Of a stretch of 64,000 nucleotides of DNA, positions 1 through 3,932 are shown piece after piece. This stretch comes from Fodinicola acaciae. Its GTDB lineage: Bacteria; Actinomycetota; Actinomycetes; Mycobacteriales; HKI-0501. A program made the position numbers and the translations under genes. The stretch lies in assembly GCF_010993745.1 (NCBI RefSeq), contig NZ_WOTN01000002.1, forward strand, positions 1,364,001 through 1,428,000. The letters are read 5' to 3'. Position 1 is the stretch's first letter. Each line of letters begins with the position of its first letter. The notes below the pieces were generated by a model. That model was not told where the DNA came from, did not search any database, and saw only the letters and a list, made by a program, of their open reading frames with translations.

Positions 1-3000
1 CGCGGCCGTGCGCGACGCCGGACAGCGCGAGCAGGTAGAGATAGAAACTGAGGCCGAGCACCGAAGCCGGCAGCGTCGCGCGGAAGAACTCGATCGCGAG
101 CCGCTGCCACACCAGCCGCCGGATCGGCCGGAACGTCTCCTGTTCGGAGTAGGAGCCGCTGTCCTGCCGCAGCGGCAGGTGCATCGCCGGGGAGCCGAGC
201 CAGGAGGTGCCTTCCGGCACTTTTTCCTCCGGTGGTACGGTCCCGACGCCGACCAGCGACCCGTCGCCGAGGTTGGTGCCGGCCGGCACGAACGCGGCGT
301 TGCCGACGAACGCGCGGCTGCCGACCTCGGTCGGCAGGAAGGCGACCCGGCCGTTGGCGAAGGTCGCGGCGCCGACGCTGGCCATGTCGGCGACGAAACT
401 TTCGTTGCCGAGCACCAGAAGATCCGGGTCCAGGTGCGCGGCCGTGGAGACCTCGGCGCGCCGGCCGACGCGTGCGCCGAGCATCCGCAGCCACGGCACG
501 GTGTAGAGCGTCGCGTAGAGCGAGTTGGTGAAGGTCAGGCTGAATTCCAGCAGCTTGTCGGAAATCCACTTCCGTACGCCGAGACCGGACCGCACGGGAT
601 GGATGCCGATGGGCGTGTTCGGCATGATGACGCGCTTGCCGACGGCCACCACACCGCAGACGGTGAGGACGAAAACCGGCCCGGCGATGACGGTCGCGAT
701 CATGCCGGCGAGCACACCCCAGGCCAGCAGGGCCCACCAGACCAGCGCGACGCCAGGCACGATCATCGCGATCGCGCCGACCTCCAGGCCGGCCAGGCCG
801 AAAAATGCGCCGAGCAGGTGCCAAAACCGCCAGCCGCGGGTTTCCTGGTGGCCGCGCATCATCATCTCGACGACGACATCCAGCTCGTCGGTCGGCTGCG
901 CAGGTGAACCCGACCAGCGCTGGCCGATTGGGACCCATTGGCCTTCGCCGATCACGGACTGCTGCGCCAAGGAAGCGCCGGCGTCGATGGTGCTGCCGGG
1001 TTCGAGAACGGCGTTCGCGCCGACGAATGCGCCTGGTCCGACGGTGATGGGCGCGACCGTCACCAGGCCATCCTCGACGCGCCACGGCCGCAACGTCACG
1101 CCATAGCCGATGGACGCGTCGGCGCCGACGTAAACCATGCTCGGCATGGCGATCGCGCTGGTCTCGATGGTCGTACGCCGGCCGACGTGCGCGCCGAGCA
1201 GCCGCAGATACGTGGACGTCAAAGGAGAACCGCTCACCACCGGCAGTGGACCGATGGCCAGCAACATGTCCAGCGCCCACAGCCGCAGATAGGTCAGGCC
1301 CCACAACGGATATCGGCCCGGCTTGATCCCCCAGGCCAGCGGCCGCGCCACCACCAGCGGCACGATCCACCGTACGCCGAGATAGCTGACCAGGATCGCG
1401 CCGAGCAGCTGCACCAGCACGTCGACCGACACGTCACCGTTGTTGACGGTGTAGACGTACGACACCGGCAACGTGATGACGAGCAACAACAAGTAGATCA
1501 CCACGGCCTGCGCGGCACCGGCGCGCGCGATCCGGCCGGTGCGGTGCCGCATGCCCGGCGCCTTGGCGGCCGCCGGTGCGGCTCCGCGCTGTTGCCGTTC
1601 CTCCAGATGTGCCGCCAGCTCGCGGACCGTCTGGTTGGCGTAGAGGTCGCGTACGGCCGGGTTGGAGCCGATGTTTTCGTTACGTAGGAAGGAGACCACC
1701 GTGGCGGCGAGCAGCGAGTGGCCGCCGAGGTCGGTGAAGAAGTTGGCCTCGACCGACAGATCCTCGGCCGCCAGGCCGAAAGCCTGAGCCCACGCGTCGC
1801 GTACGCGCGTCTCCATCTCGGTTTGCGGTGCCACCACTGGCCCCGACGACAACGCCAGCCGGCGGCCGCTGGGCAGCGGCAGCCGCTTGCGGTCGACCTT
1901 GCCGCTCGGCATCGTCGGCAGCGACGCGACGACGTCCAGGAAGGACGGCACCATGTATGGCGGCACGCGGTCCTTGAGCTGACCGTGCAGCCGCCGCACG
2001 ATCGCATCCTCGTCGCCGTGGCCGGCCAAAAGGACGACGTACGCGGAAAGTTCCTTTGCGGCGTCCGGTTCAGCGCTCACCGGCATCATCGCGGTCACCG
2101 CTTCGGCGACCGCGTCGTCCTCCATCAGTACGCTCTCGATCTCGCCGAGATCCACCCGGTGGCCCCGAATTTTCACCTCGGAGTCGGCCCGACCGAGGTA
2201 TTCGATCTCGCCGTCCGCGGTCAGCCGGCCGAGGTCGCCGGTGCGATAGAGCTTGCTGCCCGGCGGTGCGCACTCGTGCTCGATGAACTTGTCGGCGGTC
2301 AGGTCCGGCCGGCCGACATAGCCGCGCGCGACTCCGGGACCGCCGAGGCAGATCTCACCAACCTCGCCGTCCGGCACGAGTTTGCGGTCCTCGTCAAGCA
2401 AAACGGCGGTGTACGTCGGCACCGGCCTGCCGATGACCACCGGGCGGCCCGGATAGAGGTCGCACCAGATGGCCGTCACGGTCGCCTCGGTCGGGCCGTA
2501 CGTGTTGAGGATCCGCCGTCCCGGCCGGCTCCACCGCTCCACCAGCTGCCCGGGGCAGGCCTCGCCACCGACCAGGATGTTGCGGATTTTCGGCAGCTCA
2601 CGGGGGATGGTCGCGAGCAGCGTCGGCACGCAGTAGAAGACCGTGATGCCGGCGCTGTCCAGGAAGTCGGCGAGCTCGGCGCCGAGCCGTCGCGAGTCGG
2701 TGGGGCCGACGACCAGCGTCGCGCCGCGTTCCCAGGTCGGCCAGATCTCCTCGATGGAGAAGTCGAAGGAGATCGTCATGCCCTGGTAGACGCGGTCGGT
2801 CGGCCGGACGTCGTAAAGCGTCGGCACCACGTCGAGGAAGTTGCAGATGCTCGACTGCGCGACCAGCACGCCTTTGGGCCGGCCGCTGGAGCCGGAGGTG
2901 TAGATGATGTACGCGTCCGGGTCGGGGTTGCCGGCGTCGTCGAGGCTGAGGTCCGGCCGGTAGGCCGGTTGCGACCGCAGTTCGTCGGCCGCGGTGTCGA

Positions 3001-3454
3001 CCTCGAGCACGGCACAGGGCAGCCCGCTGGCCGCCGCGGACAGATCCGACGATGTGACGATCAGGTCGACGCCGGCGTCCTCGACGATGTAACCGACCCG
3101 GTCGGGGGGAGAACCCGGGTCGATCGGTACGAACGCGGCCGCCGCCTTGCCGATGCCGAGCAGCGCGACGTACGTCTGCAGCGACCGGTGCAGCAGGATC
3201 GCGACCCGCGATCCGTCGCCGACACCGGCCCGCCGCAACCGGTGTGCGAGCTGGTTGGCCAGCGTGTCCAGCTCGCGATAGGTGACCGCGCGCTCGTCGG
3301 TCCGCACGGCGACGGCTTCCGGCGTGCGGTCGACGCTCGCCTCGAAGACATGGTGCAGCCGGCGAACGTTTGCGCCGGAATATCGCGGCTGTGAATAGTC
3401 TGTGGACGGATGCGCCACCACCCTGGTGGTTTCTCCAGCCATGTCAATGGACAT
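1..3454 (-). CDS. Pls/PosA-type membrane NRPS (poly-amino-acid synthetase-like), C-terminus off window
   Basis: This is a single-module non-ribosomal peptide synthetase fused to a membrane region, the layout of epsilon-poly-L-lysine synthetase. About 1151 residues lie in the window and the C-terminus is cut at base 1. The adenylation domain fills roughly residues 25-510, with YTSGSSGRPKG near 180, FDFSIEEIW near 230, NTYGPTE near 320 and the PSGKVDRK lysine near 515. A carrier domain follows, with its GGHS serine near 581. Then come hydrophobic segments (from about 645) and two left-handed beta-helix, acyltransferase-like blocks (about 730-830 and 930-1080) separated by further membrane segments. 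There is no classical condensation or thioesterase domain, as in Pls. The ATG at 3454 was chosen because GGGGAG lies 4 bases upstream; an in-frame ATG at 3442 is an alternative. The selectivity residues are consistent with a basic amino acid substrate, but the product is inferred. Confidence 0.9.
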   Translation of the reverse strand, partial: MSIDMAGETTRVVAHPSTDYSQPRYSGANVRRLHHVFEASVDRTPEAVAVRTDERAVTYRELDTLANQLAHRLRRAGVGDGSRVAILLHRSLQTYVALLGIGKAAAAFVPIDPGSPPDRVGYIVEDAGVDLIVTSSDLSAAASGLPCAVLEVDTAADELRSQPAYRPDLSLDDAGNPDPDAYIIYTSGSSGRPKGVLVAQSSICNFLDVVPTLYDVRPTDRVYQGMTISFDFSIEEIWPTWERGATLVVGPTDSRRLGAELADFLDSAGITVFYCVPTLLATIPRELPKIRNILVGGEACPGQLVERWSRPGRRILNTYGPTEATVTAIWCDLYPGRPVVIGRPVPTYTAVLLDEDRKLVPDGEVGEICLGGPGVARGYVGRPDLTADKFIEHECAPPGSKLYRTGDLGRLTADGEIEYLGRADSEVKIRGHRVDLGEIESVLMEDDAVAEAVTAMMPVSAEPDAAKELSAYVVLLAGHGDEDAIVRRLHGQLKDRVPPYMVPSFLDVVASLPTMPSGKVDRKRLPLPSGRRLALSSGPVVAPQTEMETRVRDAWAQAFGLAAEDLSVEANFFTDLGGHSLLAATVVSFLRNENIGSNPAVRDLYANQTVRELAAHLEERQQRGAAPAAAKAPGMRHRTGRIARAGAAQAVVIYLLLLVITLPVSYVYTVNNGDVSVDVLVQLLGAILVSYLGVRWIVPLVVARPLAWGIKPGRYPLWGLTYLRLWALDMLLAIGPLPVVSGSPLTSTYLRLLGAHVGRRTTIETSAIAMPSMVYVGADASIGYGVTLRPWRVEDGLVTVAPITVGPGAFVGANAVLEPGSTIDAGASLAQQSVIGEGQWVPIGQRWSGSPAQPTDELDVVVEMMMRGHQETRGWRFWHLLGAFFGLAGLEVGAIAMIVPGVALVWWALLAWGVLAGMIATVIAGPVFVLTVCGVVAVGKRVIMPNTPIGIHPVRSGLGVRKWISDKLLEFSLTFTNSLYATLYTVPWLRMLGARVGRRAEVSTAAHLDPDLLVLGNESFVADMASVGAATFANGRVAFLPTEVGSRAFVGNAAFVPAGTNLGDGSLVGVGTVPPEEKVPEGTSWLGSPAMHLPLRQDSGSYSEQETFRPIRRLVWQRLAIEFFRATLPASVLGLSFYLYLLALSGVAHGR

Positions 3455-3932
3455 ACGTCTCCCCGAGCCGAACAGTGGGCCCTCGCGGCACATTTCGGCT
3501 GTATTAACTATGCACGGAAAGAGCCCGTTCCGTATCCTCCGATTGTCCAGTCGGGCCCGGAAATCGGCTCGCACACAGGAGAAACCCTTTCCCTCCCGGA
3601 ACCGTTCAGCTGCCCGACACGTTAATGTCGGCGGAAATTGGGTAAGACAAAGAAATAGCTGTGTTTACGCGACGAACCGCATGCCTGCCATCCACGATGG
3701 GACAAGGTCATGCCAACATCCACCCAGTCGGCACTGTTGGTGTGAAGATGCTCACGGCCGGTGCGTCAAGGTGGCGAAAGTCGGTGCGGGAGGAGCTTTC
3801 GACTCCACACCGTACACAGTCACACGCGTGCGGTGGTCACCGGGGTGACCAAAGATACCCCTGACTCTGCCCGAAAAACCCTGCCTGATCGGCGGTCCGA
3901 ACGGCCGGTCACCTGCCGATTACGCTGCAACG
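3455..3932. other. Divergent intergenic region upstream of the Pls-like gene
   Basis: This 478-base stretch separates two divergent genes and must hold both promoters. It is less GC-rich than its surroundings near the NRPS start. No convincing open frame, tRNA, hairpin or palindromic operator was recognised. Confidence 0.4.

Follow-up and report, generated by a model that had tools for sequence, protein, structure and literature searches.

The synthetase gene and its domains

The window, meaning here the whole stretch of 64,000 nucleotides of Fodinicola acaciae DNA that was analysed (C2:1364001-1428000 of the genome), begins inside a large minus-strand gene for a Pls/PosA-type synthetase. This gene runs past base 1, and its remainder was read from the same genome (in locus L009, where the window coordinate is the L009 coordinate minus 12000). 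It is complete there, with its stop at window position -670 (L009:11330), and 1191 codons of the 1414-codon open reading frame lie in the window. The features of the gene are as follows.

1..3454, minus strand: Pls/PosA-type synthetase gene, in-window part; start ATG at 3454, alternative GTG at 3574; runs past base 1
1880..3346, minus strand: adenylation domain, aa 77-565 (Pfam PF00501/PF13193, TIGR01733)
2747..2767, minus strand: FDFSIEE, with pocket residues D235, F236 and E239 (PheA alignment; nearly invariant in the clade)
1604..1807, minus strand: carrier (PP-binding) domain with the GGHSL serine, aa 590-657 (Pfam)
1..1495, minus strand: TIGR02353 Pls/PosA terminal region, in-window part, aa 694 onward; membrane segments, C1 and C2
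1207 (C1), 490 (C2) and -233 (C3, beyond base 1), minus strand: LRxxGAxVGRR motif positions, from motif reading

The longest reading frame begins with the GTG at 3574; the ATG at 3454, which has GGGGAGACGT directly upstream, is most likely the true start. Pfam matches the AMP-binding domain at aa 77-419 (E 9e-80) along with AMP-binding_C, the carrier domain, whose serine is invariant within the clade described below, and a Hexapep domain. The NCBIfam model TIGR02353 covers aa 694-1372 and scores 535 bits, above its cut-off of 423, and within this terminal region the motif LRxxGAxVGRR occurs three times (aa 790, 1029 and 1270), once for each of the tandem domains C1, C2 and C3. An adenylation domain followed by a carrier, a full terminal region with three tandem domains, and the residues Asp235 and Glu239 together mark the protein as a member of the Pls/PosA family; at the scores obtained, it is not possible that this architecture is due to chance. 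The preliminary description of this DNA, which had claimed the domain order of a Pls/PosA synthetase and had proposed to look for a third tandem domain beyond base 1, is therefore borne out on both counts. The same order, adenylation, carrier and three tandem membrane domains, is that of the poly-lysine synthetase Pls (7WEW).

The clade of the window gene

A scan of genomes gave 80 relatives with 50-73% identity, nearly all of which have the pocket code DFEY(x)GTVTK; the viral contigs scanned gave no match. In the tree the window gene falls in a supported clade with genes of Streptomyces, Micromonospora, Dactylosporangium, Kutzneria and others, and a gene of S. noursei is nested in this clade with a support of 99. 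The latter provides a link to a characterised system. S. albulus PD-1, which in the NCBI taxonomy is S. noursei, produces both poly-lysine and poly-diaminopropionate (PDAP) via two Pls-type genes (PMC4668381). Disruption and heterologous expression tied the second of these genes to PDAP, and L-DAP was the best substrate of its adenylation domain (PMC4668381). S. noursei A-2-1 has exactly two genes of the Pls/PosA family, one of the DFEY type and one of the poly-lysine type (DAES), the latter matching the adenylation domain of the crystallised S. albulus Pls (7WEW) with 963 bits and being about 92% identical to it by inspection. Since one of the two genes is the poly-lysine enzyme, the DFEY gene would by elimination be the PDAP synthetase, and we presume that it corresponds to EXU85975 of PD-1. 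The lengths of the reading frames count against this identity, EXU85975 having 4338 bp and the A-2-1 gene at most 4263 bp.

With this presumed orthologue as the intermediary, the window gene and the PD-1 PDAP synthetase (EXU85975, PMC4668381) have architecture, pocket type and clade in common. The identity between the window protein and the S. noursei orthologue is about 60%, and the two loci differ: that of S. noursei contains a single glutaminase-fold gene, and in the window operon a pentein, a membrane protein and an exported second glutaminase-fold copy come in addition. The best reading of these comparisons is that the window gene is an orthologue of the PDAP synthetase and would join the known PDAP-synthetase group.

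The substrate-binding pocket

Alignment to PheA gives the window synthetase the selectivity code DFEYLGTVTK, identical to the code that had been read by hand in the preliminary description. The clade varies at position 5 of the code (PheA 299) and, in a few members, at position 4; a text search with the pocket codes found no match. The window and S. noursei proteins agree at 31 of 34 pocket positions and differ at the other three, whereas the window protein departs from the Lys-type pocket at 13 of 34, among them Phe236 where the Lys-type has Ala236. The residue at code position 2 has been related to substrate, with Phe in PDAP and PDAB synthetases, Met in the ornithine enzyme and Ala in the lysine enzyme, and Glu239 is reported to be essential (PMC10522769). 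The earlier view of the acidic third position as the sign of a diamine pocket agrees with the close homologues, which retain the acidic E239 pocket and give no sign of a conserved non-basic specificity.

The same genome contains a second member of the family (C3:715200-718973, L045:8179-12036) with the code DAESIGTVVK and an adjoining M1 peptidase; genes of this Pls type share about 35% identity with the window gene, and an M1 peptidase is present in 15/15 DAES loci sampled. We assign the lysine polymer to this gene rather than to the window gene because of its DAES code, its M1 neighbour and the match of the S. noursei DAES gene to Pls. The window gene as a poly-lysine synthetase is ruled out, its pocket being different and a Pls-type gene lying elsewhere in the genome. 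The earlier proposal of a cationic polymer, not necessarily poly-lysine, is accordingly favoured both by the pocket and by the presence of the poly-lysine code in that second gene. As a separate observation, the co-occurrence of DAES and DFEY genes suggests that the organism may be a producer of two cationic polymers.

The phenylalanine at code position 2 is common to PDAP and PDAB synthetases, and the substrate could also be L-2,4-diaminobutyrate, with gamma-poly-diaminobutyrate as the product. In the tree the PDAB clade comes out as the sister group, and diaminobutyrate is made in this genome via an ectoine-type EctB. However, this EctB belongs to an ectoine cluster elsewhere in the genome, neither dat nor ask lies beside the window gene, and the dat-ask-linked genes have DFECLSA/V, with Cys278 and Ser301 instead of Tyr278 and Gly301; we consider diaminobutyrate an unlikely substrate. 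The gamma-PDAB synthetase PldA of S. celluloflavus illustrates the distinction: it shares its architecture, Phe236 and Glu239 with the window synthetase and also has an HGSNAT/DUF418-type gene nearby, but its code is DFECLSAVTK and it is followed by dat and ask, a gene arrangement that has been published (PMC8117764). S. celluloflavus has three family genes, one DAES, one DFECLSA followed by dat and ask, and one DFEYV.

Other variants of the family were encountered as well. Two pockets are unusual, DGESVSVVNK (L093:8190-12248, genome G110) and DFECLSCVSK (L092:8223-12230, genome G191), and may be suited to other substrates. In the genome of Kutzneria viridogrisea (G204, via L189) the Pls/PosA terminal domain is matched six times, five of these over the family cut-off, and in Geodermatophilaceae (L048:7265-7981 and relatives) a divergent phosphopantetheinyl transferase gene adjoins the synthetase.

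Supply of diaminopropionate

Co-occurrence with SbnA and SbnB was used to probe the substrate. No homologue of SbnA or SbnB over the cut-off was found in the window genome; the search for SbnB also fails in S. noursei, at E 1e-50. Among genomes of the order, SbnA exceeds the cut-off in 24/200 and SbnB likewise in 24/200, and SbnB was found in 21 of the 55 clade genomes searched, which are of mixed taxa. The window genome does have an ornithine cyclodeaminase homologue, with no PLP synthase seen beside it. In S. noursei, genes for PLP-synthase-like, decarboxylase-like and cyclodeaminase proteins lie in one cluster (L267:2823-6319), which may contain the pair NjxA/NjxB described for diaminopropionate in PMC4668381, yet is siderophore-like too.

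The operon and its pentein

The synthetase is the first gene of an operon that continues on its 3' side, beyond base 1, all on the minus strand.

L009:10543-11330 (window about -1457 to -670), minus strand: ArgZ-like pentein, 262 aa
L009:9814-10539, minus strand: F7a, cytosolic glutaminase-fold protein
L009:8345-9817, minus strand: F6, HGSNAT/DUF418-type membrane protein
about L009:7590-8348, minus strand: F7b, glutaminase-fold protein with a lipoprotein signal

The stop of the synthetase overlaps the start of the pentein (CTGATGAAC), the stop of the pentein overlaps the start of F7a (CCTGATGTC), and short overlaps join F7a to F6 and F6 to F7b. In this arrangement the operon is translationally coupled. 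Models for anti-phage defence gave no match to the operon partners.

The pentein, present in 14/80 loci, has the fold of the arginine dihydrolase ArgZ (TM 0.91, 34% identity), although it scores under both the DDAH and the ArgZ cut-offs. It keeps Asn20, Asn69, Arg87, Asp117 and Cys255, but in 15/15 aligned operon copies the catalytic His is replaced by Asp (Asp161), so that the Cys-His pair of an ArgZ-type dihydrolase is broken; a paralogue of the DDAH type in this genome retains its His. In enzymes of the ADI and DDAH types the catalytic His is described as the base that does the activating (PMC11659421), and it is on this report, together with general knowledge of the family, that our reading of the change depends. 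Compared with ArgZ/AgrE (6JV0, 6LRF), the operon pentein thus shares the fold and most active-site residues, and differs in having Asp for the catalytic His and in being without a cyclodeaminase domain.

This likeness bears on a further alternative, in which the pentein would form L-ornithine from arginine and the synthetase would polymerise it to delta-poly-ornithine as PosA does (8WWW). ArgZ/AgrE, the closest enzymes in fold, are ornithine-forming; PosA is of the same family, with the same Glu239 logic, and its code DMEHNGTVSK has Asp, Glu, Gly, Thr, Val and Lys in common with that of the window gene. However, the catalytic His is missing from every aligned operon copy of the pentein, the majority of clade loci sharing this pocket have no pentein, and position 2 of the PosA code is Met, not Phe; PosA is, moreover, a stand-alone gene (PMC10522769). 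An ornithine polymer appears to us quite improbable for the window gene.

The membrane protein F6 is acyltransferase-like, and a comb-type diaminopropionyl polymer is among the products of the enzyme family (PMC10522769). Both are in keeping with a product other than a plain diamine homopolymer, whether comb-like or otherwise modified, or built from another small diamine amino acid; nothing specific counts against such a product, which we nevertheless think improbable. In S. celluloflavus an F6-type HGSNAT/DUF418 gene (L210:15128-16354) is part of the poly-diaminobutyrate cluster, a hint that such proteins may act more generally with polymers of this kind.

The glutaminase-fold enzymes

F7 is the most constant neighbour of the synthetases, being present in 61 of the 80 loci; in a separate genome sample it was found in 12/13 loci of the clade itself versus 0/26 loci of other types. 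The model of F7a (pLDDT 90.6) has a class-I glutaminase fold. Among the Foldseek-ranked PDB chains that were compared, its best match is PdxT (Z 20.6 over 180 residues, 2.5 A), and the gamma-glutamyl peptidase GGP1 gives Z 16.4 (200 residues, 3.4 A). The triad Cys114, His207 and Glu209 is invariant in 36 F7 sequences, and its motifs are present in F7b. Inspected by eye, second F7 copies downstream of the synthetase mostly have a twin-arginine-like or lipoprotein signal (that of the window genome begins MRRWIALALTAALVAALAAC), whereas 12/12 inspected first copies have no such signal. A glutaminase-fold enzyme that is predicted to be exported, beside a polymer predicted to be exported, is more plausibly a polymer hydrolase than an amidotransferase.

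The distribution of M1 peptidases points the same way. An M1 peptidase is nearby in 0/18 loci with a second F7 copy versus 26/40 one-copy loci, a difference that in raw counts gives a Fisher p of 1.3e-6 but on the tree amounts to about three switches, for which an independent-pairs test is unable to reach significance. This mutual exclusion of exported F7b and exported M1 goes only as far as suggesting that the F7 enzymes cut the polymer. As for the polymer-degrading peptidase for which the preliminary description had proposed to inspect the DNA beyond base 1, no M1 match was found in L009, the locus of the window synthetase, and the two glutaminase-fold proteins are the candidates there instead. 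Among the titles and abstracts covered by a literature search, none concerned an enzyme that degrades PDAP.

A proposed function

With its architecture, pocket, clade and operon established, the window gene probably encodes a beta-poly-L-2,3-diaminopropionate synthetase. From the characterised relatives we infer how activation, loading, polymerisation and export would proceed. The adenylation domain would activate L-2,3-diaminopropionate, Glu239 pairing with the side-chain amine in a pocket made short by Phe236 and Tyr278, and the carrier domain would hold the thioester. The membrane-embedded domains C1-C3 would then repeatedly form isopeptide bonds through the side-chain amine, and the cationic polymer would leave the cell through the membrane segments. 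F7a and F7b would cut the polymer, for recycling or self-protection. As to the partners, it is possible, if rather less than probable, that F7a and F7b are new glutaminase-fold isopeptidases acting on poly-diaminopropionate inside and outside the cell, that F7b replaces the exported M1 peptidase of other loci, which would be used against poly-lysine, and that the pentein with its His to Asp change catalyses a related reaction whose substrates are amines, either arginine-like or those of the polymer.

Cationic polymers with isopeptide linkage have antimicrobial activity, and their uses, established or under study, include food preservation and drug delivery. The comparisons made here offer a key from pocket to substrate, with DAES for lysine, DFEC for diaminobutyrate and DFEY for diaminopropionate. 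In the cited papers, the diaminopropionate polymer has no named accessory gene. This operon and its relatives, spread across many actinobacterial genera, are candidates for genes through which a producer may control or survive its own polymer, and the operon partners, two glutaminase-fold enzymes and a pentein with a changed residue, are the part of the locus most deserving of attention.
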